Source: Burkholderiales bacterium
GTDB taxonomy: Bacteria; Pseudomonadota; Gammaproteobacteria; Burkholderiales; Burkholderiaceae_C
Length of the DNA: 64,000 nucleotides
Assembly (NCBI GenBank): GCA_016185015.1
Contig: JACPOI010000031.1
Span: 39,691 to 103,690, forward strand
Direction: 5' to 3'
Part shown: piece after piece, positions 40,319-58,386 of the stretch
Layout: every line of letters starts with the position of its first letter
How positions within the stretch are numbered: the first letter of the stretch is position 1
Notes under the pieces: generated by a model
The model's input: only the letters and a program-made list of their open reading frames with translations
Database searches by the model: none
What the model was told of the DNA's origin: nothing
Translations under genes and position numbers: made by a program

Positions 40319-40639
40319 ATGGACCGCGTTGCTCTGAACCTGCTGCGCATGCGGATCGGGGAGATGCCGTCGTCTGGCATGTCGACGCAGATGGCACCGT
40401 TCCCGGCCAACCAGATTGAGTTCCAGGCCATTCTCGACCGCCTAGCGGACCTGCCTGCCGAGGATCTTGTGGGTCGTCTGGACATCGGCGGCTTCGCGCC
40501 GCATCCGGTTGAACTCGGTGGCATCGAACAGCGTTGCGCCGAGTGCATCTACTACCTGCCACACCGGAAGTGGTGCGACCTGCCCGAGTTGCCAGTCCCG
40601 GTCGAGCCGCAATGGTGGTGCCGGCTGTGGAAGCTCTAG
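40319..40639 (+). CDS. small four-Cys protein, HiPIP-like motif, paralog 3
   Basis: CAECIYYLPHRKWCDLPELPVPVEPQWWCRLWKL. Confidence 0.75.
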   Translation: MDRVALNLLRMRIGEMPSSGMSTQMAPFPANQIEFQAILDRLADLPAEDLVGRLDIGGFAPHPVELGGIEQRCAECIYYLPHRKWCDLPELPVPVEPQWWCRLWKL

Positions 40640-41161
40640 TCCAAGCTAATCTTAGTGCCCTCTTGATTCGCCTCGGCCATGGCCTCCGGCTCAAGTTTCT
40701 CCGCATAACTGTTGAACCGTATGAACAAGTCCCAGCCTGCGAGCAGAACACCGCAAGAGGCGACGATGCACGACGCAAAGTACAACTGACGTGGGTCCTC
40801 GTGCGCGGCCTTGAAGGTTGCAACAAGTCCTTCAATGGCAAGCGCCACAACAACGACAACCAGAAATCTCGACAAGAACCGCTGCACCCGTGTAGGGCCG
40901 CTCACGTGAACGCGAGCGCTGCCAGTGATGGACGCCGAGAAGCGCCGCAGCCCCTGTCCGCTATGGCCGCTGCAGCCGTGGCTGGTTGCCGGCATCGGCC
41001 AGCGAGATCATTGACACCACAATGTCTTCGGCCAGCGGGGTGGGTCGAGCGGATGGAGTCCTCGGAACAACAGGTGTACTCCAGCCCATAACGCCACAGC
41101 ATCGGTGTGCGCGGCTTGTTCTCATGCCCTGGCGGCGCGTCACCTCGTAGAACGACTTCAT
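40637..41161 (-). pseudogene. degraded membrane protein gene (glycosylation-pathway-annotated family, tentative)
   Basis: Reading continues across three minus frames: [28 protein letters not shown].. / [18 protein letters not shown].. / VQRFLSRFLVVVVVALAIEGLVATFKAAHEDPRQLYFAS. Confidence 0.5.
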
Positions 41162-41530
41162 GTAGATGTCTCCGGGCCTTGACCTCGGATGCCCGGAATG
41201 GCGTGATGGGTCGTCACTTCTTGCTCACGCTTCGTGCCAGCTGCGTTCGAACCTCCGCGAAACACGGATGACTGGCTGGCAAATCCTTGATTTGTTTCCT
41301 TTTTTCAGGCGATTTAGGGTCTCGGTCAGCCGCGTCCACAATGTTTGACAGGCAAGTACATTGGCACGCAACCGCGCGGTGCGCCAACAAATAGCCAGCC
41401 GGCTAGATAGCAAACTTAGTTTTCATAAGGTGTTTACCTAATAGACGTTCTCGAGCCGTTGGTTAATCTTGCGATAGCAGCTAGTAGCGAACCCCGGCGT
41501 GGCCCAAGAGCCAGCAAGGAGACAAAATTT

Positions 41531-42589
41531 ATGGAGACAAGCACGGCGCCCGCTTCGGGCCGACCGGATGGCCGAAGCCTCTTCACGGTGGCCGACGCCG
41601 AGGTGCAATCGGCGCTGGCTCTGGCGGAAGACGGCGAGGCCGCGCCCGAGGAACGGGCCGAGATGCTGATGGAGATCGCCCGCGGTCTGCAGATCAAGCC
41701 GCGCTCGCCGCGCCAGTTGCACGATGCGGTGGCGCTGTACGAGCGGGCACTGGCGCTGGTTCCACCCACGTTCGCGTTGCTGGCCGCGCGCATTCGAGCC
41801 CGCCAGGGCACGGCCTACCAGACCCTGCCCGATGGTGGTACCGCCGCACTCGAATCGGCGCGCGACTGTTTCGAGGCCGCTCGCGCCGACCTGGCCACCC
41901 ATGGCCTGGCCGAAGAAGTGGCCGAACTCGACCTGAACCTGGGCCTCGTGACGCAGACGCTTTGCGCTGCTCACCGGGCGACGATCCAGGAGGCGATCGC
42001 GCATTACCACCGCGCCCTGCGCGTGTTCACCAAACAAGCTTGGCCGCGCGAGTTCTCGATCCTGCACAACAACCTGGCGATCGCCTACCTCTCGATTCCG
42101 GCCACCGACGAACGTGCGCGCATGCGCGAGGCGCTCGCCGTGCAGTCGTTCGAGGAGGTGCTCGGCATCGTGACGCTGGTGGACCATCCCAGCGAGTACG
42201 CGATGACGCAGAACAACCTCGGCAACGCGCTGCAGTACGCGCCGAGCAGTCATCCCGTGGCCAACCTGCTGCGTGCAGTGGAGGCGTACGACGAGGCGCT
42301 GAAGGTGCGCAACCCGCGCGACATGCCGGTGGAGTACGCCAACACCGCGGCCAACAAGGCCAATGCCCTGCTCAACCTGCCGGACGACCCCGAGCACCCC
42401 GAGCTGGGCAACCCGGGCAACACCGCGAAGGCGCGTGCGCTGTATCGGGAGGCGCAACGACTCTTTCAGTCCGCGGGCCTGGACGACGCTGCGGCCACGG
42501 TGGCCGACGCACTCGCCGGCATCGATGCCTCGCACGCCGACTTCGGCGCCTCACGCGTCCCCGGTGATGCCGGGCCGACCGAACATTGA
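41531..42589 (+). CDS. TPR-repeat protein of hydrogenase island
   Basis: Helical repeats AVALYERALALVPPTFALLAARIRARQGTAYQTL...FSILHNNLAIAYL...AMTQNNLGNALQYA. Confidence 0.85.
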   Translation: METSTAPASGRPDGRSLFTVADAEVQSALALAEDGEAAPEERAEMLMEIARGLQIKPRSPRQLHDAVALYERALALVPPTFALLAARIRARQGTAYQTLPDGGTAALESARDCFEAARADLATHGLAEEVAELDLNLGLVTQTLCAAHRATIQEAIAHYHRALRVFTKQAWPREFSILHNNLAIAYLSIPATDERARMREALAVQSFEEVLGIVTLVDHPSEYAMTQNNLGNALQYAPSSHPVANLLRAVEAYDEALKVRNPRDMPVEYANTAANKANALLNLPDDPEHPELGNPGNTAKARALYREAQRLFQSAGLDDAAATVADALAGIDASHADFGASRVPGDAGPTEH

Positions 42590-42645
42590 CCAGAACTCCT
42601 GGTTCAGGAGCATCCACCAAACCATTGACCAACATGGAGCAAACG

Positions 42646-42837
42646 ATGACTGTGACCCTCGTATTGATGTGCCTGGCCGCCGTGCTGGCGGGCGCGGCGG
42701 GCGGTGCCGCAACCGGCGTGAAGCTCGGCGGCCAGGCGATGGGCAACGAGATCGCCGCCTTCATGGGCGCCTTCTTCGGCCTCGCCGCAGTGGTGCCCGC
42801 CGCGGTGGTGGCCGTGCTGATCCACGCTTTGCGCTGA
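42646..42837 (+). CDS. small membrane protein A
   Basis: Hydrophobic Gly/Ala-rich two-helix ORF preceded by GGAG Shine-Dalgarno-like sequence. Confidence 0.65.
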   Translation: MTVTLVLMCLAAVLAGAAGGAATGVKLGGQAMGNEIAAFMGAFFGLAAVVPAAVVAVLIHALR

Positions 42838-42856
42838 ACGCGCCAAGGAGCAAACG

Positions 42857-43075
42857 ATGTTCGATATGGTGCTCAATTCGATCAAGCTGTTCGTCGCCGG
42901 CAAGCTGTTCCGCGACAACTGGGCGTTCTTCCGCCAGCTCGGCGCCGGCTTTGCCGTGACGCTCGCGCTGATGCTCGCGCTCGGCTGGCTGAACCCCTGG
43001 CTCGGCATGGTGGCCGGTGGTGCCTTCGGCGGCGCGCTGATGCCGTGGCTGTTCCGCAACCTCAAGTACAACTGA
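42857..43075 (+). CDS. small membrane protein B
   Basis: 72 aa, hydrophobic helices, AAGGAG upstream. Confidence 0.65.
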   Translation: MFDMVLNSIKLFVAGKLFRDNWAFFRQLGAGFAVTLALMLALGWLNPWLGMVAGGAFGGALMPWLFRNLKYN

Positions 43076-43095
43076 AGAACCCGAGGCCCAGCCCC

Positions 43096-43980
43096 GTGAA
43101 CGCAGCGACCCACGACGACAGCGAGCGGCTGGCCCACATGGCCACCGAGGTGGCGGCGCTGCAGGCCATCGGCCAGGCCTGGCCGCTGGAGCAGCGCGCC
43201 GTGCTCGACAACCTGCGCGGCGCCATTGAGGCCCTGCACCGCGAGGCGCTGGTGCGCCTGCTCAAGGGGCTGCGCGACGAGCCGGCGGCCGCGGCCCGGC
43301 TGCGCGAGCTGGCGTCGGACCCGTTCATTTATGGCGTCCTGCGGCTGCATGGTCTGGTGCGCGAGCCGCTGGAGGCGCGGGTCCGCGCCGCGCTGGAGTC
43401 GGTCGCACCGATGCTGGCCGAGCATGCCGGCGGTGTCGAGCTGGTGGCGATCAAGCTGCCCGACACCGTCGAGGTGCGCTTGACCGGCAGCTGCCAAAGC
43501 TGTCCGGCATCGGGCCAGACGCTGTCCGAAGGCGTGGAGCGTGCGATCAAGGAGCATGCGCCGGAGATCGTCCGCGTCGTCCAGGTGCGGCGCTCGGCCG
43601 AAACGCGGGCGCCCGGCGAAGCGGTGCCGATTCATTTCGTCAGCCCCTTCGCCAAGGCCGAGGATCGTGGCTTCGTCGATCTTTGCGCCGTGGACGAACT
43701 GCCGCAAGGCCAGGTGGCGGCGCGTACGCTGCGCGACGAGGCCTTGCTGCTCTACCGCGACGGCTCGCAGGTGTTTTGCGTGGCGAACGCCTGCGCGCAT
43801 CTCGGCATGCCACTGGACGATGGCGCTGTCGCCGAAGGCGTGATCGAGTGCCCGCATCACGGCTTCCGCTACCGCCTGGATACCGGCGAATGCCTCGACG
43901 TGCCCGAGGTGCAACTGGTGGTGCACGCCGTTCGTGTGCGCGGTGGGCGCGTCGCGGTGAAGCTGGGAGCGTCGGCATGA
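43096..43980 (+). CDS. NifU C-terminal-like plus Rieske [2Fe-2S] fusion protein
   Basis: GSCQSCPASGQTL (NifU CxxC) and CAHLGMPLDD...CPHHGFRYRLDTGEC (Rieske); GTG start proposed. Confidence 0.88.
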   Translation: MNAATHDDSERLAHMATEVAALQAIGQAWPLEQRAVLDNLRGAIEALHREALVRLLKGLRDEPAAAARLRELASDPFIYGVLRLHGLVREPLEARVRAALESVAPMLAEHAGGVELVAIKLPDTVEVRLTGSCQSCPASGQTLSEGVERAIKEHAPEIVRVVQVRRSAETRAPGEAVPIHFVSPFAKAEDRGFVDLCAVDELPQGQVAARTLRDEALLLYRDGSQVFCVANACAHLGMPLDDGAVAEGVIECPHHGFRYRLDTGECLDVPEVQLVVHAVRVRGGRVAVKLGASA

Positions 43981-45155
43981 ACGGCATCGCGGCTGCCGCG
44001 CCCGTCAAGGTATCGCTCGCACGGCCGCGCGAGCGCGCAGTTGCCCCGGCGGCGCTTGCCGCGGCCGGCGCGCGTGTCATTCTCGGCCTGCACGACCCGC
44101 TGTCCGGCGTCGCCCTGACGCCCGCCGCAAACACCCTGTTCGGACCTCGCGGCGCGGCGGTGACCGCCGACGGCGCCTTGTGGGTTGCCGACACCGGCCA
44201 CCACCGGCTGCTGGGCTGGCCGGCGGTGCCTACCGGCGATGGCGAACCCGCTTCGTGGGTGATCGGACAACCCGGCTTCGACCGCGAGGGCCGCAATGCG
44301 CATGCCGAGGTCAACGGCGCCAGCTTGAACGTGCCCACCGGCGTGTGCGCTTGCGGCGAGGGCCTTGCAGTCGCCGACGCGTGGAACCACCGCGTGCTGA
44401 TCTGGCACCGTGCGCCGCGGCACAGTCAACAGCCGGCCGACGTGGTGCTGGGCCAGGCCGATGCGCACGCCGGGTTGGCCAACCGCGGGCTCGACACGCC
44501 TGCGGCCGACACCCTGCACTGGCCGTATGGCGTGTTCTGGGACGGTGCGCGCCTGTGGGTGGCCGACACCGGCAACCGCCGCGTGCTGCGCTTCGACGGC
44601 CTGCCGGCGCGTGACGGGCAGCGCGCCAACCTCGTGCTCGGCCAGCCGGACTTCGTGCACCGCGACGAAAACGCCGGTGGCGTCACGCAGGCCACGATGC
44701 GCTGGCCCCATGCGCTCGCCGTCTGGCAGGGGCATCTATGCGTGGCCGATGCCGGCAACAACCGCCTGCTGCTGTGGCGCGGCGACCCGGCCAGCAACAT
44801 GGCGCGCAGCGACCTCATCATCGGTCAAGGCGAGATTGACGCGCTGGATCACAACCGTGGTGAGTACTTTCCCAGCGCCCGCAGCCTGAACATGCCTTAC
44901 GGCCTGGCGGTGCATGAAGACCGGCTCTTCGTTGCCGACACCGCCAACTCACGCGTGCTGCGCCTGGACGCACCTGCCGAGCGCGAGGCGCGCGCGGTGG
45001 CCGGGCAGGCGAGTTTCGTCGACAAGGGTGACAACCGCTGGCTGCCGGCGGTGCGCGACTCGCTGTGCTGGCCGTATGCCATCGCGATTCAAGGCAACAC
45101 CGCGATCATCGTCGACTCGGGCAACAACCGCATCCTGTTGTGGGACGTCGCGTGA
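43977..45155 (+). CDS. NHL-repeat beta-propeller protein
   Basis: Repeated LWVADTGHHRLLGW / VADAWNHRVLIW / LWVADTGNRRVLRF / VADAGNNRLLLW units. Confidence 0.88.
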   Translation: MNGIAAAAPVKVSLARPRERAVAPAALAAAGARVILGLHDPLSGVALTPAANTLFGPRGAAVTADGALWVADTGHHRLLGWPAVPTGDGEPASWVIGQPGFDREGRNAHAEVNGASLNVPTGVCACGEGLAVADAWNHRVLIWHRAPRHSQQPADVVLGQADAHAGLANRGLDTPAADTLHWPYGVFWDGARLWVADTGNRRVLRFDGLPARDGQRANLVLGQPDFVHRDENAGGVTQATMRWPHALAVWQGHLCVADAGNNRLLLWRGDPASNMARSDLIIGQGEIDALDHNRGEYFPSARSLNMPYGLAVHEDRLFVADTANSRVLRLDAPAEREARAVAGQASFVDKGDNRWLPAVRDSLCWPYAIAIQGNTAIIVDSGNNRILLWDVA

Positions 45156-47584
45156 TGAGCGCCGCGCCCGCCACCGCAGTGCTGACCGATCGACCCCATG
45201 CGGCGCCGATGTGCGGCGCACGCTTGCAGGTGCGCGGCATCGTTCAGGGTGTCGGCTTCCGGCCGCAGGTGCTGCACCTGGCGCGCGCGCTCGGCGTGGT
45301 GGGCAGCGTTCACAACGAAGGCACGATGGCCATCGTCGAAGCCTTTGGCCCCGGGCCGGCGCTCGCCGAGTTCGAGCAGCGGCTGCGCACGCTCGACCAC
45401 GGCGGCGCCCGCATCGATGCGCTGCTCGCGCAGCCGCTCGCCGTGCCGGCGGCGCTGCCTTCGACCTTCTCGATCGCCGACAGCGCGCTGGCGCAGCCGG
45501 GCCTCGGCGTGGCGCCCGACTGGGCCATCTGCCCGGCGTGTTGTGCCGAGACACTGGATCCTTTCGCGCGCCGCTACCGCTATGCGTTCACCGCGTGCAC
45601 CGCCTGCGGCCCGCGCCTGAGCGTGTTCGAACGCGCCCCCTACGACCGCGCGCGTACGACGATGGCGCCCTTCCCGTTGTGTGCGGCCTGCGCGCGCGAA
45701 TACGGCGACACCGACGACCGGCGCTTCCACGCCCAGGCGATGGCCTGCCACGCCTGCGGCCCGCGCGCCACGCTGCGCCGTATCGACGGCAAGCCCTTCA
45801 GCCTGGAGGCCATGACCGCGCTCGACGACGCGGATGGCGCCACATCGTTGCTGGGGCGCGGCGAGTTGGTGCTGATCAAGGGCCTGGGCGGCTACCAGAT
45901 CGCCTGTGACGCGACACACGCCGACGCGGTGGCGCGGTTGCGCGCACTCAAGCGCCGCGAAGGCAAGCCCTTCGCGTTGCTGGTGCGTGACGTCGAGATG
46001 GCGCGCCAGTGGTGCCTGTGCGACGACGTGGCCGAGGCCGCGCTCGCCAGCCCGGCCGCGCCGATCGTTTTGCTGCCGCGGCGCGCCGATGCACCGCTGG
46101 CCGACGGCGTCGCACCCGGCCTGCCGACGCTGGGCGTGATGCTGCCAAGCACTGCTCTGCACCTGCTGCTGATGCGGCGCCGCAAGGCGCCGATCGTGCT
46201 GACCAGCGGCAACCTGAGCGAAGAGCCGCAAGCGATACGGCTGGACGAAGCTTCGGCCCGCCTGGGCCCCTCCATCGCGTGGGTGCTCGACCACGACCGT
46301 GCGATCCAGCGGCGGGTGGACGATTCGGTCGGCCGCGTCGTCGGCGGCGCCTTCCGGGTCATGCGTCGCGCGCGTGGCTACGCCCCGGCGCCGCTGCCGC
46401 TGCCCGAGGGTTTCGACCACCGCACCAAGGTGCTGGCGCTCGGCGGCGACCTGAAGAACACCTTCGCGCTGGTGCGCGATGGGCAGGCGGTGCTGTCCCA
46501 GCACATCGGCGACCTGCACGATGCCGCCTGCCTGGCCGACCAGCGGCGTGCGCTGGCCGACTACCTCGCGTTCTACGCCTTCGAGCCCGACCTCGTCGCC
46601 TGCGATCTGCATCCGGGTTATGCCTCGACGCAGCTCGCGCACGAGCGCTGGGCCGACCGACAGGTCGGCGTCGGTCACCACCATGCGCACATCGCCGCCT
46701 GCCTGGGCGAGCACGGGTGGCCGCTGCACGGCGGCAAGGTGCTCGGCATAGCGCTCGACGGCATCGGCATGGGCGAGGACGGCAGCTTCTGGGGCGGCGA
46801 GTTCCTGCTCGCCGACTACCGGCAGGCGCAACGCGTGGGCACCTTCAAGCCGGTGGCCCTGCCGGGCGGCGACCTGGCGGCACGCGAGCCCTGGCGCAAC
46901 ACCTATGCGCAGTTGATGGCCGAGATGGGTTGGCCGCGCTTCACGAGCAACTATGACGAGCTGGAGCTGCACCGCTTCCTCAGCGCCAAGCCGCGCGAGA
47001 TGCTTGATGCGATGCTTGCCAAACCGGCCCTGGCGCCGCGTGCCAGCAGCGTCGGGCGCTTGTTCGATGCGGTAGCGGCTGCCATCGGCATCTGCCGCGA
47101 CAACGTGGCCTACGAAGGCGAGGCAGCGATGGGCCTGGAATCTCTGGTCACCGCGCAAGACCTCGACGAGAGCGCCGACCTCGACTACCCGTTCGCGATT
47201 CCTCGCTTGGACAAGGGCAAGGGCCTGCCCTACGTCGAGCCTCTGGGCATGTGGCAGGCCCTGCTCGGCGACCTGATTCTGGCCACACCCGCGGCCCGCA
47301 TCGCTGCGCGCTTTCACCGCGGGCTGGCGGCGGTCATCGTGCGCATGGCGCAGCAAGAGGCCGAACGTCACGAGCTGACGACCGTTGCCCTGGGCGGCGG
47401 CGTGTTCCAGAACAAGGTGCTCACCGAACTCGTTCTGCGCGGGCTCGAGGCGGCGGGGCTGAAGGCCCTGCTGCCGCGCCAGGTGCCGGTGAACGACGGC
47501 GGGCTTGCCTGGGGCCAGGCGCTGATCGCACTGGCCCGCGCCAGCCAGGACGAACAACGACAGGAGAAGATCCCATGTGTCTAG
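45155..47584 (+). CDS. hypF: carbamoyltransferase HypF
   Basis: RGIVQGVGFRPQVLHLA acylphosphatase; CPACC.. zinc fingers; carbamoyltransferase domain. Confidence 0.95.
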   Translation: MSAAPATAVLTDRPHAAPMCGARLQVRGIVQGVGFRPQVLHLARALGVVGSVHNEGTMAIVEAFGPGPALAEFEQRLRTLDHGGARIDALLAQPLAVPAALPSTFSIADSALAQPGLGVAPDWAICPACCAETLDPFARRYRYAFTACTACGPRLSVFERAPYDRARTTMAPFPLCAACAREYGDTDDRRFHAQAMACHACGPRATLRRIDGKPFSLEAMTALDDADGATSLLGRGELVLIKGLGGYQIACDATHADAVARLRALKRREGKPFALLVRDVEMARQWCLCDDVAEAALASPAAPIVLLPRRADAPLADGVAPGLPTLGVMLPSTALHLLLMRRRKAPIVLTSGNLSEEPQAIRLDEASARLGPSIAWVLDHDRAIQRRVDDSVGRVVGGAFRVMRRARGYAPAPLPLPEGFDHRTKVLALGGDLKNTFALVRDGQAVLSQHIGDLHDAACLADQRRALADYLAFYAFEPDLVACDLHPGYASTQLAHERWADRQVGVGHHHAHIAACLGEHGWPLHGGKVLGIALDGIGMGEDGSFWGGEFLLADYRQAQRVGTFKPVALPGGDLAAREPWRNTYAQLMAEMGWPRFTSNYDELELHRFLSAKPREMLDAMLAKPALAPRASSVGRLFDAVAAAIGICRDNVAYEGEAAMGLESLVTAQDLDESADLDYPFAIPRLDKGKGLPYVEPLGMWQALLGDLILATPAARIAARFHRGLAAVIVRMAQQEAERHELTTVALGGGVFQNKVLTELVLRGLEAAGLKALLPRQVPVNDGGLAWGQALIALARASQDEQRQEKIPCV

Positions 47585-47856
47585 GAATCCCGGGCCGCAT
47601 CGAGGCCATCACCCGCCCCGAAGCCAAGCTCGCCCTGGTGGACGTACTCGGCGTCAAGCGCGAGATCAACATCGCCTGCATCGTGCGCGAAGGCGAGCCG
47701 CTCGAGGAATGCATCGGCGCCTGGGTGCTCGTTCACGTGGGCTTCGCGATGAACCGCGTCGACGAGCACGAGGCGATGTTGACGCTGCAATTGCTCAAGG
47801 AACTCGGCGACGCGCAGGTCGAACTCGAGAGCTACAAGACACGGGCCGTGGTGTGA
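47575..47856 (+). CDS. hypC: hydrogenase chaperone HypC
   Basis: MCLGIPGRIEAI. Confidence 0.95.
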   Translation: MCLGIPGRIEAITRPEAKLALVDVLGVKREINIACIVREGEPLEECIGAWVLVHVGFAMNRVDEHEAMLTLQLLKELGDAQVELESYKTRAVV

Positions 47857-48590
47857 ACGCATCGAAGGACAAGGCGGCACTCGGCGCCCTGTACCCGCAT
47901 CTCGCGCCTCGCGCGGCGACCACGGGCGAAGCTGCGCAGGATGCACGCGACGCACTGCGCCTCGAAGCGGCGCTGCGCGAAGCGATGGTGGCCAAGTGGC
48001 GCGACAGTGTGGCCGTGAAGACCCGCTTCTTCGAGGCCCACGGCAACGATGTGCTGCGTGCGGCCCAGTTGCTGGCCGAGGGCTTTCGTCACGGCGGGCG
48101 CCTGTACACCATGGGCAACGGCGGCTCGAGCTGCGACGCTGCGCATGTCGCCGTCGAGTTCCAGCATCCGGTGACCGCCGGGCGCCCTGCGCTCCCGGCG
48201 CACAACTTGGCTCAGGACATGGCCATGCTGACCGCCGTCGGCAACGACGTCGGCTTCGACGAGGTGTTCGCGCGCCAGATGCCGGGGCTGGTGAAGGCCG
48301 GCGACATGGTGCTGGGCGTGTCCACCAGCGGTAACTCGCGCAATGTGTTGCGCGGTCTCGAGGCCGCGCACGATCTGCAAGCCAGCACGCTGGCGCTGGC
48401 CGGTGGCGATGGCGGTGCGATGGCGCGCTCGGCGAGCGTCGATCTCACCCTGCTCGTGGACAGCGACAGCATCCACCGCATCCAGGAGACGCATGTGGCG
48501 ATCTACCACGTGCTGTGGGACCTCGTGCACAGCCTGCTGGCCGACGACCGGCCGGCGCGCGCGTCGGCCCCGAAAGGAAGAACTCCATGA
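47853..48590 (+). CDS. SIS-domain (GmhA-like) protein between hypC and hypD
   Basis: GRLYTMGNGGSSCDAAHVAVEFQHP...DMVLGVSTSGNSRNVLRGLEAA; GTG start. Confidence 0.88.
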   Translation: MNASKDKAALGALYPHLAPRAATTGEAAQDARDALRLEAALREAMVAKWRDSVAVKTRFFEAHGNDVLRAAQLLAEGFRHGGRLYTMGNGGSSCDAAHVAVEFQHPVTAGRPALPAHNLAQDMAMLTAVGNDVGFDEVFARQMPGLVKAGDMVLGVSTSGNSRNVLRGLEAAHDLQASTLALAGGDGGAMARSASVDLTLLVDSDSIHRIQETHVAIYHVLWDLVHSLLADDRPARASAPKGRTP

Positions 48591-49726
48591 AGTACGTCGA
48601 TGAATTCCGCGATCCGCTGGCCGCGCGCGCGTTGCTGCGCGAAATCGCCGGCGCCACCGAGCGCCTGGGCGCCAGCCTCGAACGCCCGCTGCAGATCATG
48701 GAGGTATGCGGCGGCCACACGCACTCGATCTTTCGCTATGCGCTGAAGGACCTGATCCCGCCCGCGCTCGAGTTCGTGCATGGCCCGGGCTGCCCGGTGT
48801 GCGTGCTGCCGATGGGCCGGGTCGACGACTGCGTGGCCATCGCGAATGAGCCCGGTGTCATCTTCACCACCTTCGGCGACGCGATGCGCGTGCCCGGCTC
48901 CAAGGGCTCGCTGCTGCAGGCGCGCGCCGACGGCGCCGACGTCCGCATGGTCTATTCGCCGCTGGACGCGCTCGAGATCGCGGCCGCGAACCCGGGCCGC
49001 GACGTGGTGTTCTTCGCACTCGGCTTCGAGACGACCATGCCCTCCACCGCGATGACGGTGCTCGAAGCGAAGCGGCGCGGCATCGGCAACTTCTCGCTGT
49101 TCTGCAACCACATCACGATCGTGCCGACGATCAAGGCCATACTCGACTCGCCGGGCATGACGATCGACGGCTTCCTCGGGCCTGGCCATGTTGCGATGGT
49201 CTCGGGCACCGCGCCTTTCGAGTTCATCGCCGCCGAGTACGGCCGGCCGCTCGTGATCTCGGGCTTCGAGCCGACCGACATCCTGCAAAGCCTGCTGATG
49301 GTGCTGCGCCAGCTCGAGCAGGGCCGCGCCGCGGTCGAGAACCAGTACGCGCGCCTCGTCGACCCGGGCGGCAACGCAGCAGGGCTGGAGGCGATCACCG
49401 AGGTCTTCGAGCTGCGCGAGTTCTTCGAGTGGCGCGGCCTGGGCTCGATCGACCACTCGGGTGTGCGGGTGCGCGAGGCCTACGCGGCCTTTGATGCCGA
49501 GCGCCGCTTTTCTGTGCCTGGCGCGCGCATTGCCGACCCCAAGAGCTGCCAGTGCGGCGAGGTGCTGAAAGGCGCGATCAAGCCGCCGCAGTGCAAGGTG
49601 TTCGGCACCGCCTGCACGCCGCAGACGCCGCTCGGCGCGTTGATGGTCAGCAGCGAAGGGGCGTGCGCGGCGTATTACCAGTTCGCGCGGCGCGAGCCGG
49701 TGATCCCGATCGCGGTGGCCGCATGA
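48587..49726 (+). CDS. hypD: hydrogenase maturation protein HypD
   Basis: MEVCGGHTHSIFRYALKDLIP; HGPGCPVCVLP. Confidence 0.96.
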   Translation: MKYVDEFRDPLAARALLREIAGATERLGASLERPLQIMEVCGGHTHSIFRYALKDLIPPALEFVHGPGCPVCVLPMGRVDDCVAIANEPGVIFTTFGDAMRVPGSKGSLLQARADGADVRMVYSPLDALEIAAANPGRDVVFFALGFETTMPSTAMTVLEAKRRGIGNFSLFCNHITIVPTIKAILDSPGMTIDGFLGPGHVAMVSGTAPFEFIAAEYGRPLVISGFEPTDILQSLLMVLRQLEQGRAAVENQYARLVDPGGNAAGLEAITEVFELREFFEWRGLGSIDHSGVRVREAYAAFDAERRFSVPGARIADPKSCQCGEVLKGAIKPPQCKVFGTACTPQTPLGALMVSSEGACAAYYQFARREPVIPIAVAA

Positions 49727-50778
49727 CGCCAACCCCCACGCCCAAGGACGCCTGGAGCGGCAAGCGCGTGTCGATGGCGCACGGCGCCGGCGGGCGGGCG
49801 ATGCGCGAGCTGGTCGCCGGTCTCATCGCACCCGCCTTCGACAACCGCTGGCTGGCGCCGCTGGAGGATCAGGCACGCTTTCCTTACGAAGAGATTCCCG
49901 CCGGCTCGTCGCTCGCGTTCACGACCGACAGTTACGTAGTTTCCCCGATCGAATTCCCCGGAGGCGACATCGGCACGCTCGCCGTCTGCGGCACGGTCAA
50001 CGACCTGGCCGTCGGCGGCGCCATCCCGCGCTGGCTCAGCTGCGGCCTGATCCTGGAAGAAGGCCTGCCCTTCGACACCCTGCGCAAGGTGTTGCACAGC
50101 ATGGCGCGCAGTGCGCGCGAGGCCGGCGTGGCTATCGTCACCGGCGACACCAAGGTCGTTGAACGCGGCGCCGCCGACGGGCTGTTCATCAACACCGCAG
50201 GCATCGGCACCATTGCCGCGGGGCGCCAGACTGGCGCACGCGAGGTGCGGCCGGGCGACCGGCTGATCGTCAACGGCACCCTTGGTGACCACGGCGTGGC
50301 CGTGCTGGCTGCACGCAACGACATGGCGCTGCAGATTCCCGTGCAAAGCGACTGTGCACCGCTGAACGGGCTGATCGAAACCATGTTCGCCGCCGCGCCG
50401 CGCCTTCACTGGCTGCGCGATTGCACGCGCGGCGGCCTGGCGACGGTGGCCAACGAGTTCGCTGCAGAAAGCCGCATGCCATTGCGCCTGGAGGAGTCCG
50501 CTTTGCCGGTCGCGGACGTGGTGCGCGGCGCCTGCGAGATGCTGGGGCTCGACCCGCTCTATCTGGCCAACGAGGGCAAGCTGGCGGCGCTGGTGGCGCC
50601 GCAGGACTGCGACGCGGTCCTTGCGGCGATGCGCTCGCATCCTCTGGGCCGCCGCGCCGCCGTGGTGGGCGAAGTGCTGGCGCACGGGCATCCCGGCCTG
50701 GTGACGTTGCGCTCGGCCTTCGGCGGCGAGCGCGTGGTGGATCTGTTGCACGGCGACCAGTTGCCGCGCATCTGCTGA
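49723..50778 (+). CDS. hypE: hydrogenase maturation protein HypE
   Basis: HGAGGRAMRELV; C-terminal PRIC. Confidence 0.95.
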   Translation: MTPTPTPKDAWSGKRVSMAHGAGGRAMRELVAGLIAPAFDNRWLAPLEDQARFPYEEIPAGSSLAFTTDSYVVSPIEFPGGDIGTLAVCGTVNDLAVGGAIPRWLSCGLILEEGLPFDTLRKVLHSMARSAREAGVAIVTGDTKVVERGAADGLFINTAGIGTIAAGRQTGAREVRPGDRLIVNGTLGDHGVAVLAARNDMALQIPVQSDCAPLNGLIETMFAAAPRLHWLRDCTRGGLATVANEFAAESRMPLRLEESALPVADVVRGACEMLGLDPLYLANEGKLAALVAPQDCDAVLAAMRSHPLGRRAAVVGEVLAHGHPGLVTLRSAFGGERVVDLLHGDQLPRIC

Positions 50779-50796
50779 GCTGCCAGGACCCTAGCC

Positions 50797-51144
50797 ATGC
50801 ACGAACTCGGCATCACACGAAACCTGGTGGCCATCGTTGCCGAGGCAGCGCAGGGGCGGCCGGTGCGCAAGGTGTGGCTCGAAATCGGCACGCAGACGGC
50901 CCTGCTGCCGGACTCGGTGCGTTTTTGCTTCGATGTCGTTCGGCAGGGAACGCTACTGGAGGCGGCCGAACTCGAGATCGTCGAGGTCGCGCCGGGCTGG
51001 CTCTGCGAAGACTGCGGCACGCCTGCGGGTGGTGAGGCCGAGGCCATGCCCGCGGCTTGCGCCCACTGCGGCGCGACCCGCTGGCGCCGCCGCACCGGAC
51101 AGGAACTCAACGTCAAAGCAATGGAGGTGGAAACATGTGTGTAG
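50797..51144 (+). CDS. hypA: nickel-insertion protein HypA
   Basis: MHELGITRNLVAIV; Zn-finger CEDCG..CAHCG. Confidence 0.95.
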   Translation: MHELGITRNLVAIVAEAAQGRPVRKVWLEIGTQTALLPDSVRFCFDVVRQGTLLEAAELEIVEVAPGWLCEDCGTPAGGEAEAMPAACAHCGATRWRRRTGQELNVKAMEVETCV

Positions 51145-52073
51145 TCTGTGGTTGCAACAGCAAGGCTGATGTTCGTGTCGAAGGGGACACCGACGAGCAC
51201 GAGCATGTGCTTGCGGACGGGTCGCGCACGCGCCATCGACACGCGCCGGACGAGGGGCATGGCCAGGCTGGCGGTGCGCATGCTCACCCGGTCTTGAACG
51301 CCCACGATCACGATCACGATCACGATCACGATCACGATCACGATCACGATCATGGTCACAGTCACTCGCATGCGGCTCACCGCCAGGACGCTCCGGCCGA
51401 GCTGGTGGCACTGGAGACGGCGTTGCTGGACAAGAACCAGCGCATCGCCGAACGCAATCGCGGCTGGTTGTCCGGCCGCGGCGTGCTGGCGTTGAACCTG
51501 ATGTCCAGCCCCGGTTCGGGCAAAACCACGCTGCTCGTGCGCACGCTGCGTGACCTGAGCGGCGAGTTTCCGATGTGCGTGGTCGAGGGCGACCAGGAGA
51601 CCAGCGCCGACGCCGACCGCATTCGCGAGACCGGCGCGGCAGCGATCCAGATCAACACCGGCGCGGGCTGCCACCTGGAAGCCGACATGATCGAGCGCGC
51701 GGTGCAGCGCTTGGCGCCGGCTTCGGGCAGCGTGGTCTTCATCGAGAACGTCGGCAACCTGGTCTGCCCTTCTCTGTTCGACCTCGGCGAGCGGGCTCGC
51801 GTGGTGGTGTTGTCGGTGACCGAGGGCGACGACAAGCCGCTGAAGTACCCGCACATGTTCCGCAGCGCCGACCTGATGATCACGACGAAGATGGATCTGG
51901 CGCCGCACGTGGCCTTCGATGTCGGCCGCGCGGAGCGCCATGCGCGCAGCGTCAATCCGACCATCCGTTGCCTGCGCCTGTCGGCCACGCAGGGCGAAGG
52001 GCTCGACGAGTGGTACGGCTGGCTGCGCGCGATGCGCCGCATCGACCCGTTGGTGCGGCCGAGTTCTGCCTGA
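51135..52073 (+). CDS. hypB: nickel-insertion GTPase HypB with His-rich N-terminus
   Basis: MCVVCGC; (HD)n; NLMSSPGSGKTTLLVRTL. Confidence 0.95.
   Translation: MCVVCGCNSKADVRVEGDTDEHEHVLADGSRTRHRHAPDEGHGQAGGAHAHPVLNAHDHDHDHDHDHDHDHDHGHSHSHAAHRQDAPAELVALETALLDKNQRIAERNRGWLSGRGVLALNLMSSPGSGKTTLLVRTLRDLSGEFPMCVVEGDQETSADADRIRETGAAAIQINTGAGCHLEADMIERAVQRLAPASGSVVFIENVGNLVCPSLFDLGERARVVVLSVTEGDDKPLKYPHMFRSADLMITTKMDLAPHVAFDVGRAERHARSVNPTIRCLRLSATQGEGLDEWYGWLRAMRRIDPLVRPSSA
51303..51350 (+). repeat. 8 x CACGAT hexamer microsatellite inside hypB
   Basis: 48 nt perfect tandem repeat encoding His-Asp x8. Confidence 0.95.
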
Positions 52074-52080
52074 GTCCGCC

Positions 52081-52791
52081 ATGGACGTCCTCATGATCTT
52101 CGGGCTGGGGCTGCTGCTGGGAATGCAGCACGCCACCGATGCCGACCATCTGGCCGCCGTTGCGACGCTGGCCACCCGCGAGCACTCATTGGCGCGCGCG
52201 CTGCGTCTGGGCGCCGCCTGGGGGTTGGGCCATTCGCTGGTGCTGCTCGTCGTCGCCGGTGCGGTGACTGGTTTGGGCTGGGTAATGCCGCCCCAATGGG
52301 CACTGCGCTTCGAGCAGGCGGTCGGTGTATTGCTGATCATGCTCGGTGCGCGGCTGGCATGGCGCTTGTGGAAGGATCGAGTGCACTTTCACGGCCATGG
52401 CCACCCTGGCCGGGCGCCGCACTTCCACGGGCACTCTCACGACCCGCGCGCCGCGTCCGAGCCTAGGCCGGCACACGCCACCGACCCGCACCGCCATGCA
52501 CATCGCTTGCCCGCGGCGAGCATGCTGGTTGGCATGCTGCACGGCTTGGCAGGTTCGGCGGCGCTGGCGTTGCTGGCCTTGGGCGCTCTGCCAACTCCAG
52601 CGATGCAGCTGGGGTACATCGCGACCTTCGGCATCGGATCGATCGTCGGCATGGCGTTCCTCACCGGCGCGCTGAGCGTCACCTTGCGGCTCACCGCCAA
52701 GCGACTGACGGCCTTGCATCGCAGCTTCACCATCGTCATCGCCTGCAGCTCGATGGCGATTGGCGGGCACCTGGCGTGGTCGTCGACATGA
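52081..52791 (+). CDS. nickel/cobalt transporter-type membrane protein
   Basis: GMQHATDADHLAAVATLA, His-rich loop HFHGHGHPGRAPHFHGHSHD. Confidence 0.8.
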   Translation: MDVLMIFGLGLLLGMQHATDADHLAAVATLATREHSLARALRLGAAWGLGHSLVLLVVAGAVTGLGWVMPPQWALRFEQAVGVLLIMLGARLAWRLWKDRVHFHGHGHPGRAPHFHGHSHDPRAASEPRPAHATDPHRHAHRLPAASMLVGMLHGLAGSAALALLALGALPTPAMQLGYIATFGIGSIVGMAFLTGALSVTLRLTAKRLTALHRSFTIVIACSSMAIGGHLAWSST

Positions 52792-54308
52792 ACACGGCCC
52801 AGGTCCACCCCAGTGTGCCCAAGCTGAGCACGGCCAAGGCGGCATCGCAAGTCCAGGCGTGGCGGGTCACGCTGGTCGGTCCGCGCCTGATCGAAGACAA
52901 GGCTTTGCTCCGGCAGTTCGGCGCCGAGTACCGGGTGCGCGTCTTCAGCCGGCTGCGCGAAGCCGCTGCATCTTTGGACGATGAGCACGACCGCGCCGAC
53001 GTGGTGGTGGCTGAACAGTCGCTCGTCGATGGCGCCGGCGTTGACCTGCTGCGAGATCTGCGTACCCGCGCGCCAGAGACGATACGCGTGTTGCTGCTGG
53101 ACAATGCCGAAGCCGAGGTCGTGCAGCAGGCGGTGAACGATGCCGCTGTCTACCAGGTGGTGATCACGCCTTGGCAGAGCGAGTCGCTGCGCCTGTTGCT
53201 GCGGCGGGCGCTCGAGTCGCGCGAGCTGGCGCGCATCCATCGCTACCTGTCACGCGAGTTGAAGTTCGCCGACGCCGTGGTGACGCGCCAGAGCGAAGGC
53301 ATGCGCGCCGTCCTGCAGGAGGTGTACTCCTTCGACCGCATGGTCTTCGTCAGCCACGCCATGGCGGAGGTTTGCAACCTTGCGCGCAAGGCGGCGCCGA
53401 CCGACCTGCCTGTGCTGATCGAAGGCGAGACGGGTACCGGCAAGGAATTGATGGCGCGCGCGATCCACCTGTTCAGCCAGCGCCACGCCTTGCTGTTCAT
53501 GGCCGTCAACTGCGCGGCTATCAACGACGATCTGCTGCAAAGCGAGCTCTTCGGTCACCGTCGCGGCGCGTTCACTGGCGCAACCACGGACCGCCTGGGC
53601 CTTTTGCAGGCTGCCGAAGGCGGCACAGTGTTTCTCGACGAGATCTCCGAGATCTCACCCAGCATGCAGGTGTCGCTGCTGCGCTTCCTGCAGGAAGGGG
53701 AAGTGCGGCCCATCGGTTCCGACCAGACGCGCCGCTGCGACGTGCGCATCGTCGCAGCGTGCAATCGGCCGCTGCGCCAGTTGGTCGATGAGGGCAAGTT
53801 CCGCCAGGACTTGTACTACCGCCTACGCGGCTTCGAGTTGCGCATACCGCCGCTGCGTGAAAGGCCCGACGACATCCCGCCGCTGGTCGCGCACATGATC
53901 GAGAAGTACGGGCGATTGACGTCCAGGCGAGTGGCCGGCCTGACGCCCGATGCGATGGCACGGCTGTGCGCCTTTCCGTTCCCCGGCAACGTGCGCGAAC
54001 TGGAAACCGAGATCCGACGGCTTGTGGCTTTGGCCTCGGACGGCGAAATCATCACCGAACGACACCTGCCGCCGGAGATTGCCAAGATCGTTCCACTGCC
54101 GGTGGCCCGGTTGAGCAACGTGAACCTCCTGCTTCCCGGCCGGACGCTGAAGGAGAAAGTCGAAGCATTGGAAGAACGGTTGGTGCGCGACACGCTGGAT
54201 CGTTCGAAGTGGAACCACACCCGTGCTGCGCAAGAGTTGGGGCTGTCCCGCGTCGGCCTGGCCAACAAGATCAAGCGCTACGGTATCCGCCGCGCCGGTG
54301 ACGAGTGA
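52788..54308 (+). CDS. hoxA: sigma54-dependent activator, HoxA/HupR-like
   Basis: GETGTGKELMARAIH, SELFGHRRGAFTGA (GAFTGA), C-terminal Fis HTH; degenerate receiver. Confidence 0.85.
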   Translation: MNTAQVHPSVPKLSTAKAASQVQAWRVTLVGPRLIEDKALLRQFGAEYRVRVFSRLREAAASLDDEHDRADVVVAEQSLVDGAGVDLLRDLRTRAPETIRVLLLDNAEAEVVQQAVNDAAVYQVVITPWQSESLRLLLRRALESRELARIHRYLSRELKFADAVVTRQSEGMRAVLQEVYSFDRMVFVSHAMAEVCNLARKAAPTDLPVLIEGETGTGKELMARAIHLFSQRHALLFMAVNCAAINDDLLQSELFGHRRGAFTGATTDRLGLLQAAEGGTVFLDEISEISPSMQVSLLRFLQEGEVRPIGSDQTRRCDVRIVAACNRPLRQLVDEGKFRQDLYYRLRGFELRIPPLRERPDDIPPLVAHMIEKYGRLTSRRVAGLTPDAMARLCAFPFPGNVRELETEIRRLVALASDGEIITERHLPPEIAKIVPLPVARLSNVNLLLPGRTLKEKVEALEERLVRDTLDRSKWNHTRAAQELGLSRVGLANKIKRYGIRRAGDE

Positions 54309-54373
54309 CCGGCGCGCAGTGAGTGCCTCGCCGGACTCGCCTGTCAGAGCCTGCCACCCCCGCGTCCCCGCCG

Positions 54374-55045
54374 ATGAACGTCGCTGCCTTGATCTTCGAC
54401 GTCGATGGCACGATGGCGGACACCGAAGAGGTGCATCGCGTGGCCTTCAACCTGGCATTCGAGCGCCTGGGCGTGGGCTGGTCCTGGAGCCGCGCCGACT
54501 ATCTCCGGCTGTTGGCCGTGACGGGGGGCAAGGAACGCCTCGTGTTTCATATCCGCTCGCTGCCCCTCACGGCGCGCGAGAGGAATCGGCTGCTGGGCCT
54601 GGTACCGCGGATCCACACCGAGAAGACGAAGTTCTACATTTCCGCCGTGCGTGACGGGGCTGCGCCGCTGCGTGACGGCATCGCCCGACTCCTCTGCGAG
54701 GCACGAAGCGCTGGATGTCGTCTCGCCATCGCCAGCGCATCCACGACCTCGAGCGTGCACGCCCTTCTGCGCAAGGCGCTGGGTTCGCGCGGCCCTGAAC
54801 TCTTCAGCGTGATTGTCTGCGGCGAGCATGTGCGCGCCAAGAAGCCCGAGCCCGACGTCTACGAGATCGCACTGGCTCGTCTTAACCTGCGCCACGACCA
54901 GGCCATCGCGTTCGAGGACTCGACCAACGGTCTGCTGGCGGCCGAGGCCGCGGGCCTTTGGACCGTGGTGACGCCGACGCTCTGGACGGCGGCCGGGCAT
55001 TTCGACCTGGCGGGGCTGCAACTGCCGCGTCTGGGCGACCCTTGA
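54374..55045 (+). CDS. CbbY-like HAD phosphatase (second paralog)
   Basis: [33 protein letters not shown]; similar to 29190-29990 product. Confidence 0.85.
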   Translation: MNVAALIFDVDGTMADTEEVHRVAFNLAFERLGVGWSWSRADYLRLLAVTGGKERLVFHIRSLPLTARERNRLLGLVPRIHTEKTKFYISAVRDGAAPLRDGIARLLCEARSAGCRLAIASASTTSSVHALLRKALGSRGPELFSVIVCGEHVRAKKPEPDVYEIALARLNLRHDQAIAFEDSTNGLLAAEAAGLWTVVTPTLWTAAGHFDLAGLQLPRLGDP

Positions 55046-55208
55046 TATCCCTTGCCTTCAGAACCGGGCCGCGACATGCGCGATCACCCATGGCTAAGCT
55101 ACGCCGAACTCTCCAGAAGAGCGTGCGTAGGACTCAGTTGGCGATGAGACCTCGCCAAGGGCTCGCTCGCAGTTCGAGCCGCTGACATAGAGCGGGCGTC
55201 GTTTCGAT

Positions 55209-55526
55209 TCACCGCGTGCGCCCGAACCGGTACGCGCCACGCCCTGTATCGAACTCCAAGCTGAAGGTCATCGGCTCCTGCGCGTCATCGACCCCCTGCG
55301 AGCGCAGGAACTCCTGCGCTTCGATCACCCTGTCTCCGCGTGCGTTGCGTTGCTTCAGCTGCAACCCACCCGCTCCTGCCTTGAGCGGAATGAGCCACCA
55401 GCCGTCGTCGCGGGCGAGCAGCGCCACGGCGGGGAACCCGTCCAGCACGCGTTCGTAGGTCTGCGCCGGCACATGCAAGCGACCGGCGCGCACTTCCACC
55501 AGCGTCTCGAGGCTGTCCTCATCCAT
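55209..55526 (-). CDS. conserved-looking hydrogenase-island protein of unknown function
   Basis: About 105 aa ORF overlapping maturation protease 3' end on same strand. Confidence 0.6.
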   Translation of the reverse strand: MDEDSLETLVEVRAGRLHVPAQTYERVLDGFPAVALLARDDGWWLIPLKAGAGGLQLKQRNARGDRVIEAQEFLRSQGVDDAQEPMTFSLEFDTGRGAYRFGRTR

Positions 55527-55989
55527 CGCCACGTACCAAGGGTTCGAGCATGCACACCACGCGCGCGGCGGCAGCACGGACTGGGTCGGTCAGTTCGAGG
55601 CCGAAACCGATATCGCCCGCTTCGATCAGGATGACCTCCGCGTGATCGGCAAAGGACTCGCCGAACATCCTGCTGCCGGCATACAGCGCATGATCCCAAC
55701 GCAGACCATGCAGACTGAACCCGTGCTCTACGGGCGTCATTGCCTCCTTCGCGGGAAGGCGGAAGATCGCACCCGCCGAACTCCCGCTGCGGCACGCGTC
55801 GACGATGACCACGCGTTCGGCGCCGCGCACGCGAAACATCACATCCATGCCGCTGGTGCCGGCATCAATCAGATCGACGCCCTCTGCGGTGCATCGGCGC
55901 AGCTGACGCACGACTTCGATACCGACCCCATCGTCTCGACGCGCAGGGTTGCCGCATCCGATGACCGCCAAGCGAACGCGGCTGCCCAT
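55519..55989 (-). CDS. [NiFe]-hydrogenase maturation protease (HupD/HyaD family)
   Basis: LAVIGCGNPARRDDGVGIEVVRQL...VDLIDAGTSGMDVMF. Confidence 0.88.
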   Translation of the reverse strand: MGSRVRLAVIGCGNPARRDDGVGIEVVRQLRRCTAEGVDLIDAGTSGMDVMFRVRGAERVVIVDACRSGSSAGAIFRLPAKEAMTPVEHGFSLHGLRWDHALYAGSRMFGESFADHAEVILIEAGDIGFGLELTDPVRAAAARVVCMLEPLVRGDG

Positions 55990-55996
55990 AGCAGAA

Positions 55997-56326
55997 TCAG
56001 ACACGCCACAGCACGCAGGCCCACTCGGGTTCGACTCCAAGCTTCAACTCCGGGAGGTCGCAATACCGTCGATGCGACTCATAGTACATACACGTGCGAC
56101 AGGCTTGTTCGATCTCCGGCGCCTCATCGGCAACGTAGGGCTGCAGCGTGAAGCCCGCGACCCGGAGCTTGTCTTCCAGTCGATCCGGCGCAATCGCTTG
56201 CAGCGCGTCAACCGTCCTGCGCACGTCAGCGCTCTCATATGCCCGATCCTGCCACGCTGTGTGCAGGCCATCGGCCAGAGCGCTGCGGATCAGCTCGCGT
56301 TGCCGTGAGAGTTCTTCTTCCGACAT
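55997..56326 (-). CDS. small four-Cys protein, HiPIP-like motif, paralog 2
   Basis: CRTCMYYESHRRYCDLPELKLGVEPEWACVLWRV. Confidence 0.78.
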   Translation of the reverse strand: MSEEELSRQRELIRSALADGLHTAWQDRAYESADVRRTVDALQAIAPDRLEDKLRVAGFTLQPYVADEAPEIEQACRTCMYYESHRRYCDLPELKLGVEPEWACVLWRV

Positions 56327-56344
56327 GCTTACCTCCGCCCGAGC

Positions 56345-56659
56345 TCAGATACGCCACAGACGACACCACCAGTCGGGCTCGGCCGGCAGATCCAGCTCGG
56401 GCAGATCGCACCACTTGCGGTGCACAAGGTAGTACATGCATTCCTGGCAGCGCATGCGGTCTTCGCCGTAAGGCTTGTCGATCCAACCGGTGAGCACCAT
56501 CTTTCCCACCACGTCATCGGCATCCAAGTCACGGCACTGATCTAGCAGCGCCGCGAACTCCGTGCTCGTGTACGGAAACGGTTCCGTCTGGGTCCGCAGG
56601 CCGTCGGCCATCAGCTTGGCCATGCGGGCGCGGATGCTGCCGTCGGGGTCTATCGGCAT
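56345..56659 (-). CDS. small four-Cys protein, HiPIP-like motif, paralog 1
   Basis: CQECMYYLVHRKWCDLPELDLPAEPDWWCRLWRI; immediately downstream of large subunit gene. Confidence 0.8.
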   Translation of the reverse strand: MPIDPDGSIRARMAKLMADGLRTQTEPFPYTSTEFAALLDQCRDLDADDVVGKMVLTGWIDKPYGEDRMRCQECMYYLVHRKWCDLPELDLPAEPDWWCRLWRI

Positions 56660-56763
56660 GGTGCTGTCCTCGTGAGTTCGTCGTTCTTGATTCGCCCTCG
56701 CATTATGCAACAGCGCGGCGCGAAGGGTCACTCGCGCCGCACCGCGCCGCGCCCCCACCGCAC

Positions 56764-58362
56764 TCAGGCGGTTCGGAAGCGAGCCAGTTCCTTGCCTGTC
56801 TTGGCGTCGTGGGCATGCACTGTGCAGACGAGGCACGAGTCAAACGAGCGCGCGACATGCCCGACCTCGACCGGATCCGAAGGATCGGCAATCGGCGTGC
56901 CGATCAACGCCTGCTCGATCGGCCCGAGTTGGCTCTTGCCGTCGCGCGGGCCGACGTTCCAGGTCGTGGGGGCGATGATCTGGTAGTTCTTGATCTTGCC
57001 GTCCTTGACTTCGATCCAGTGGCACAGCGCACCACGGATCGCCTCGGTCGCACCCCAGCCGCGGCCGTCGCGCTCGCGCGGCTTGATGTACCAGGGGTCG
57101 TTGAGCTTGAACTCGCGCAGGCAGCGTTCGGCTTGCCGGTACAGCTTGATGGTCTCGTGCATGCGGCCGATCTGGCGCAGGTGCACGCTGGCGCCACCCA
57201 TCTTCTTGTACATGTCGAGGATGAGCGGATCGTAGTGCTGCCAGCTCTCGCCATGCTTGCCGCCGGCAATCAACTGGCGCGCGAGCGGGCCGGCTTCGAG
57301 GCGGCCATCGTCCGTGTGCGTGACGGCAGTGGACCACGAGTACTTGCCGTTGTGATCGATGGCATTCTTCTGCACCGGCTTGGTCGTGCGATCAAAAGGG
57401 TGCACGTCGGCGGAGCCTTCGTCATACCAAGCGTGAAGAGTGTTCTCACGCAGGAACTTCTGGTCCATCACCTTGTGCGTGTCGGTCTTCCCGTCGTACA
57501 CACCGCTTTTCATGATGACCGCAGCATTGCGTCCCTCGATCGTCGGCTTTTGGTACTTGTCCTCGTGCGGAAGATAACCCCAGCTGATGTACTTACCCAA
57601 GCCCGCGCCGTAGGTATCCAGACCGATGTCCTGTCCCATACGCCAATAGAAGCCGAGGTCCGAGTTCGCGTGCGCCGGTGACTCGTCCAGCCAGGCCATG
57701 AAGTCGTCGTAGCTCTTGATCTGTTCGTAGCGCTCGAGCGAGCATCCGAGCCAGAGGCTTTCGAGCCAGTTCTTCTTGAAGTACTCGAGCAGCGACCAGG
57801 CGCGCGTGATGTCGGTCAGTGTCGGCGCGCACATCACACCGCCCGGGACCATGTAGCTCGAATGCGGCCACTGGCCACCCAGGAGCGCGTAGATTTCGAC
57901 CGGCTTGCCCGAGATCGTCACGCCTTGCTCGTACGAGGTGCCAGTGAATGGCGAGAAACGCTTCACCGCTTCCTCGTAGTACTTGCTCTTGCGGTAGTTT
58001 TTGTTGGTGAGATCGATCGCGTACAGGCCATAGAAGTAGCGCGGCTGGCTCTGCAGGCTTTCGACGATCTGGCCCAGGTTGCGTGCCAGGATCGCGTTGC
58101 GCGGCACCTCGGTCTGCCAGGCCGTGTCGAGCGCCCACGCGGCGCAAGTCAGGTGCGAAGCGCCGCAGATGCCGCAGGCGCGCGGCGTCACGACAAGGCC
58201 GGCTTGCGGATCCTTGTCCTTGAGGATGATCTCGAAGCCGCGGAACAGCTCCGCTTGCGTCCAGGCGCTGGTGACGACGCCATCTTTGATGTCAACACGA
58301 ATGTCGAGATCGCCTTCCACTCGACCGACTGGCGAAATGTCTAGGGTTTGAACTTGAGACAT
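56764..58362 (-). CDS. [NiFe]-hydrogenase large subunit, actinobacterial type (group 1h/5-like)
   Basis: RACGICGASHLTCAAWALD ... DSCLVCTVH with short C-terminal extension AHDAKTGKELARFRTA. Confidence 0.92.
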   Translation of the reverse strand: MSQVQTLDISPVGRVEGDLDIRVDIKDGVVTSAWTQAELFRGFEIILKDKDPQAGLVVTPRACGICGASHLTCAAWALDTAWQTEVPRNAILARNLGQIVESLQSQPRYFYGLYAIDLTNKNYRKSKYYEEAVKRFSPFTGTSYEQGVTISGKPVEIYALLGGQWPHSSYMVPGGVMCAPTLTDITRAWSLLEYFKKNWLESLWLGCSLERYEQIKSYDDFMAWLDESPAHANSDLGFYWRMGQDIGLDTYGAGLGKYISWGYLPHEDKYQKPTIEGRNAAVIMKSGVYDGKTDTHKVMDQKFLRENTLHAWYDEGSADVHPFDRTTKPVQKNAIDHNGKYSWSTAVTHTDDGRLEAGPLARQLIAGGKHGESWQHYDPLILDMYKKMGGASVHLRQIGRMHETIKLYRQAERCLREFKLNDPWYIKPRERDGRGWGATEAIRGALCHWIEVKDGKIKNYQIIAPTTWNVGPRDGKSQLGPIEQALIGTPIADPSDPVEVGHVARSFDSCLVCTVHAHDAKTGKELARFRTA

Positions 58363-58386
58363 GGTTTTAGCTTTCTGTGTAGGGAT

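Follow-up and report, generated by a model that had tools for sequence, protein, structure and literature searches.

How are electrons from H2 passed to the quinone pool by the [NiFe] hydrogenase Huc in bacteria that lack its partner HucM? A structural answer for the handover of electrons from Huc to the respiratory chain is available for mycobacteria only, where it runs via HucM, and the uptake of trace H2 in Proteobacteria and in nitrite-oxidising Nitrospira relies on this kind of enzyme in the absence of HucM. The question is raised by a stretch of 64,000 nucleotides from a Burkholderiales bacterium (GenBank assembly GCA_016185015.1, contig JACPOI010000031.1, positions 39,691 to 103,690), hereafter the window, which encodes Huc together with three small four-cysteine proteins, here named C4A, C4B, and C4C. 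We give an about even chance to the reading that the proteobacterial-type Huc has C4A and C4B as its own cytoplasmic iron-sulfur (Fe-S) partner subunits, which resemble high-potential iron-sulfur proteins (HiPIPs) and act where HucM acts. The obvious candidate for a replacement of HucM is the C4 pair, which, if this is true, would place HiPIP-like cytoplasmic subunits in a new setting.

The three proteins share a domain with the pattern C-x2-C-x9-C-x14-C, terminating in W-x-C-x-L-W. The positions and translations of their open reading frames and the shared four-Cys motif, as reported in an earlier reading of the window (the sequence-only reading), were borne out by translation and alignment. 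C4B and C4C align end to end with C4A at 36-47% identity, with 25 invariant columns that include the four Cys, and the YY, HR, DLPEL, EP, W, and LW positions are identical in all three; as judged from this alignment, the similarity is far beyond chance. In a family alignment of 155 relatives, C71, C84, C99, W97, and W102 are invariant, C74 is conserved at 99%, and the exact x2/x9/x14 spacing of the Cys residues is found in 152 members. The last 39 residues are 56-67% identical among the three copies, compared to 19-35% in the N-terminal part, and the Cys domain of C4C appears constrained because it is 67% identical to that of C4A, whereas its N-terminal part is only 35% identical. Searches of Pfam and NCBIfam with the three proteins gave no family match, and Pfam DUF2284 matches 4 of 93 family members with a best E of 4e-4. 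The earlier statement that a signal peptide is missing could also be confirmed: no export (Tat) signal was seen in the family, and the median N-terminal hydrophobicity is 0.52, compared to 1.5-2.2 in HiPIPs. Confident AlphaFold models of C4A (pLDDT 92.5, pTM 0.82) and C4B (pLDDT 96.4) show a small Cys domain preceded by three helices. A zinc ribbon was considered and is disfavoured, because C4 has a single C-x2-C knuckle and its remaining two Cys are isolated.

The adjacent hydrogenase is, on sequence grounds, Huc of group 2a, and not the actinobacterial-type (group 1h) enzyme that had been assumed at first. Among PDB entries, the large subunit matches mycobacterial HucL with E 6e-195 versus 3e-37 for HofG, and the small subunit matches mycobacterial HucS with E 3e-157 versus 2e-33 for HofK, so that the group 1h identity was rejected. 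The neighbours HucE, NHL, and TPR are present, as expected for group 2a.

A scan of ~85,000 species genomes yielded 112 relatives, of which 80 were kept, and a hydrogenase gene adjoins all 80 of these loci. The genomic link to hydrogenases on which the sequence-only reading had staked its proposal thus exists, and it is a link to Huc. In nearly all of these loci the C4 pair is flanked immediately by hucL on one side and the protease gene on the other, within a conserved order of regulator, hucS, hucL, C4A, C4B, protease, small protein, TPR, small hydrophobic proteins, HucE, NHL, and hypF, which is seen across Alpha-, Beta-, and Gammaproteobacteria and in Nitrospira moscoviensis. A tree of 155 C4 members splits into a clade A (n=82) and a clade B (n=73) with a support of 99/100, and nearly every locus has one member of each; by this topology, C4A and C4B are an ancient duplicated pair. 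C4C is an A-type protein that falls within clade A on a branch of length 1.59, and it is also found in a close relative (G571), which makes an assembly artefact unlikely. The three proteins had been proposed to be carriers with different potentials or partners, a proposal that does not agree with the tree, in which one ancient A/B pair is accompanied by a divergent extra copy of the A type.

C4A accompanies every sampled Huc of one clade (Proteobacteria and Nitrospira moscoviensis) and C4B most of them; at some loci, for example L024, L032, and L079, C4A stands beside hucL without C4B. In Frateuria (L183), HucSL is present, C4A lies ~11 kb away next to hypB, and HucE is on another contig, while a search of the genome for C4B gave no match. 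The distribution indicates that C4A is the core partner and C4B a second copy lost in some lineages. As separate observations on Frateuria, the huc operon is dispersed across contigs, and its divergent group 2a hucSL adjoins another, less closely related [NiFe] hydrogenase cluster, in which one open reading frame is cytochrome b-like.

The co-occurrence of C4 with Huc was assessed by searches that start from HucL, since counts over loci fetched with the C4 profile are biased. Among 399 Pseudomonadota genomes, the C4 pair was found in all 4 genomes with HucL at 78-100% identity and in no others, and the 14 genomes having only more distant hydrogenases (35-41%) gave no C4. Plasmids gave a similar picture: the C4 family is present in each of the 12 records whose HucL is 76-82% identical, and in none of the five whose HucL is 56-58% identical (Runella, Mycobacterium, Hymenobacter, Sulfobacillus, and Thermus). 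A weak match on a Paracoccus pantotrophus plasmid was rejected, as its frame does not have the Cys pattern. Two stray sequences were also noted. An orphan four-Cys domain with an unrelated N-terminus is encoded in Rhizobacter (L182:1932-2060, contig 422) on a different contig from hucL, and a weak partial four-Cys match with an internal stop (L128:1513-1734), in a genome without hucL, is possibly a decayed relative or a chance match.

The distribution of HucM is the reverse. In mycobacteria, HucM forms a stalk that is thought to deliver menaquinone to HucS (PMC10017518). A gene of DUF1641, the family of HucM, is located close to hucS in M. intracellulare, Sulfobacillus, and Thermus; the M. intracellulare protein matches the HucM chain of 7uus with E 3e-34. 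No DUF1641 was found in 40 genomes carrying C4 (36 including G000 and Nitrospira moscoviensis L013, together with G062, G359, G501, and G503) by a search whose positive controls gave matches in 3 of 14 known genomes. HucS of the C4 type keeps Lys212, Tyr229, and Tyr301 of the Huc menaquinone site (site residues from PMC10017518; numbered on M. intracellulare HucS, which has the same residues), and the quinone site is probably kept because these three residues are conserved.

Since the C4 pair stands behind Huc where HucM is missing, C4A and C4B may well be Huc's own Fe-S partner subunits. The observed basis of this reading consists of synteny, the co-occurrence with HucL, the A/B duplication, the invariant Cys, the absence of HucM, and the conserved residues of the quinone site; from it we infer the metal content, docking, electron transfer, and substitution for HucM. 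The N-terminal three-helix domain would dock on HucSL, and the C-terminal HiPIP-like four-Cys domain would bind one [4Fe-4S] cluster. C4A and C4B could thereby occupy the place of mycobacterial HucM, beside the distal end of HucS, and serve as an electron relay or as an adaptor joining enzyme and quinone, such that electrons from H2 would reach the quinone pool without the menaquinone tube of HucM. C4A would be the core partner, C4B the ancient second copy, and C4C a later extra copy. Frateuria can be counted in favour of the partner-subunit reading, as C4A is kept there despite the lost C4B and the scattered operon. A broader proposal, which we hold to be tentative and somewhat improbable, is that Huc exists in two architectures, one with the HucM tube and the other, in Proteobacteria and Nitrospira, with an ancient HiPIP-like [4Fe-4S] pair carrying electrons from HucS to the quinone pool.

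Several results weigh against C4A and C4B as partner subunits that replace HucM. DUF1641 is also missing from six Pseudomonadota that have no C4 and whose hydrogenases are more distant, and the huc loci of Runella and Hymenobacter show neither HucM nor C4. Because these C4-less Pseudomonadota and Bacteroidota loci are devoid of DUF1641 too, the mutual exclusion of HucM and C4 tracks the phylogeny of HucL and alone is no proof of replacement. Homology of C4 to HucM received an hhalign probability of 0.6%, and the DUF1641 profile gave no match to C4A, C4B, or C4C. The position beside the protease gene would also fit a role in maturation, and a search of PDB folds with the C4B model returned no HiPIP among its matches. 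Apart from this, the Huc of two Bacteroidota plasmids (L119 and L172), which has neither HucM nor C4, possesses a different C-terminal end of HucS, and this Bacteroidota Huc is possibly a third architecture.

The HiPIP likeness proposed in the sequence-only reading holds in part: it is measurable, and it falls short of family membership. In the comparison of the C4A model with 350,542 PDB chains, the best fold match is the HiPIP 3hip, at a weak E of 1.3 and a TM of 0.47 by target. For the alignment of C4 to 14 real HiPIPs, hhalign gave low probabilities (12-38%), yet none of 100 column-permuted controls with the same Cys positions reached the observed profile score. In the search of the 399 genomes, one of the two off-family matches at E<=0.01 was a bona fide HiPIP (Pfam E 4e-20). 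Common to C4 and HiPIPs (PF01355) are C-x2-C, an aromatic residue at +3, C-x-L, and a final aromatic-C-x2-aromatic. The second Cys gap, which had been cited as shorter in C4, is not a real departure, as fetched HiPIPs have gaps of 8 (L095) and 9 (L129). Differences are found in the third gap (12-13 in HiPIPs and 14 in C4), in the conserved Gly of the G-W-C end, for which C4 has Trp, and in the added N-terminal helical domain and missing export signal of C4. The HiPIP motif C-x(6,9)-[LIVM]-x3-G-[YW]-C-x2-[FYW] fits 14 of 14 real HiPIPs and none of the 155 C4 proteins because Trp stands in place of Gly; 103 of the 155 fit when the Gly is dropped and Ser is allowed before Cys. Pfam HIPIP does not match the three proteins and is absent among the matches listed for 93 members. 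A profile of the 39-residue domain, run against 143 genomes with 15 known HiPIP loci, retrieved none of these and no HiPIP in the PDB, and the full C4 profile gave chance matches only against PDB sequences. By these sequence comparisons the four-Cys domain is HiPIP-like rather than a HiPIP, with homology unproven. The off-family HiPIP and the 3hip match might suggest that the two proteins are genuine soluble HiPIPs and work as free carriers, but this is highly improbable in view of the failed motif, Pfam, and domain-profile searches and the missing export signal.

Two other explanations were weighed. C4A and C4B might be maturation or protection factors of HucSL that stay outside the final enzyme and are needed, for example, to place its oxygen-exposed [3Fe-4S] clusters or to preserve them, a role comparable to that of the rubredoxin HoxR/HupI in group 1d hydrogenases. 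The C4 genes lie between hucL and a maturation protease gene, several neighbouring genes are maturation genes, and C4A adjoins hypB in Frateuria, all of which favour such a role. However, the same protease, TPR, NifU, and NHL neighbours accompany Huc in Actinobacteria, Thermus, and Sulfobacillus, where C4 is missing, so that a general maturation need is unlikely, and we regard this explanation as rather unlikely. It is more unlikely still that the two proteins are structural subunits only, with a fold stabilised by a metal (Fe-S or Zn) and no part in electron transfer, which would cover a hydrophobic patch of HucSL or set its oligomer, as proposed for the gamma subunit of benzylsuccinate synthase. 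HiPIP-fold accessory subunits with structural roles do exist (PMC12590467), and HucM itself is a scaffold as well as a quinone conduit (PMC10017518), but the four invariant Cys and the invariant aromatic residues around them in 155 proteins suggest more than a scaffold.

Comparison with known systems provides precedents for the partner-subunit reading. The beta and gamma subunits of benzylsuccinate synthase are paired cytoplasmic accessory subunits with a HiPIP fold and [4Fe-4S] clusters (PMC12590467), and we count them as such a precedent. These and the gamma subunit of HPAD (PMC12358834) are, like C4, small accessory subunits, theirs having a HiPIP-like fold and [4Fe-4S], but their partners are glycyl radical enzymes; no sequence relation to C4 turned up, and no search was aimed at one. 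HucM (MSMEG_2261, DUF1641) resembles C4 in being a small extra protein of the huc operon encoded next to hucSL, and differs in its coiled-coil stalk, its gene position upstream of hucS, and its absence where C4 is present. HucE, a NifU-Rieske protein that M. smegmatis requires to take up H2 (PMC6883350), is an Fe-S protein of the huc operon, as C4 is predicted to be, with different domains, and occurs alongside C4. For Acidithiobacillus ferrooxidans, passages of PMC7735108 propose that either a 'putative HiPIP' (DN052_04130) next to hupLS or the Rieske protein supplies the missing connection between H2 and ubiquinone. DN052_04130, a small putative Fe-S protein, adjoins group 2a hupLS in a proteobacterium, as C4 does, and the order of locus tags (NifU 04095; 04125-04130 nearest to hupLS) fits C4B-C4A by gene count alone. 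The electron-carrier idea for such a protein is thus not new, judging from those passages, in which neither the pair and its distribution nor the lack of HucM is described. No earlier report of a conserved C4 pair and its anti-correlation with HucM was found in the literature.

Table 1. Genes for the four-Cys proteins and other huc genes in the window, with the basis of each assignment.
Feature	Coordinates	Strand	Description or evidence
C4A	56345..56659	-	104 amino acids; three-helix N-terminal domain and C-terminal four-Cys domain (C71, C74, C84, C99)
C4B	55997..56326	-	109 amino acids; C4A paralog, separate ancient clade
C4C	40319..40639	+	106 amino acids from ATG at 40319; extra fast-diverging A-type copy
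HucL, group 2a [NiFe] hydrogenase large subunit	56764..58362	-	PDB 7uus/7utd HucL, E 6e-195
HucS, small subunit, start taken at MANLLWLQGG	58387..59346	-	7utd HucS, E 3e-157
Hydrogenase maturation protease, HycI/HupD family	55519..56040	-	Pfam PF01750, E 1e-12
Small conserved huc-cluster protein	55209..55577	-	Conserved synteny; no Pfam match
TPR-like huc-cluster protein	41459..42589	+	Conserved synteny; weak TPR matches
Small huc-cluster protein, sequence hydrophobic	42586..42837	+	Sequence and synteny
Second small huc-cluster protein, sequence hydrophobic	42857..43075	+	Sequence and synteny
HucE, NifU-like and Rieske domains	43045..43980	+	Pfam NifU, E 3e-20; Rieske, E 1e-18

The cluster in the window (Table 1) also contains NHL and hyp genes. 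Compared to the usual order, the block from hucS to the gene at 55209 (55209-59346) is inverted and lies far from the TPR-HucE-NHL part (41459-43980). C4C is located just upstream of the TPR gene, near the usual junction of the hucS block, and this position suggests that it arose with the inversion. Two contigs are near-identical to the window at the DNA level, one from a metagenome-assembled genome of Lysobacteraceae (L004, 99.8-100%) and the other from one of Hydrogenophaga (L005, 98.6%); the two are classified in different families, which indicates either misbinning or a mobile element. The two small hydrophobic proteins (42586-43075), in the interval between TPR and HucE, are kept in many clusters of the C4 type and are possible membrane contact points.

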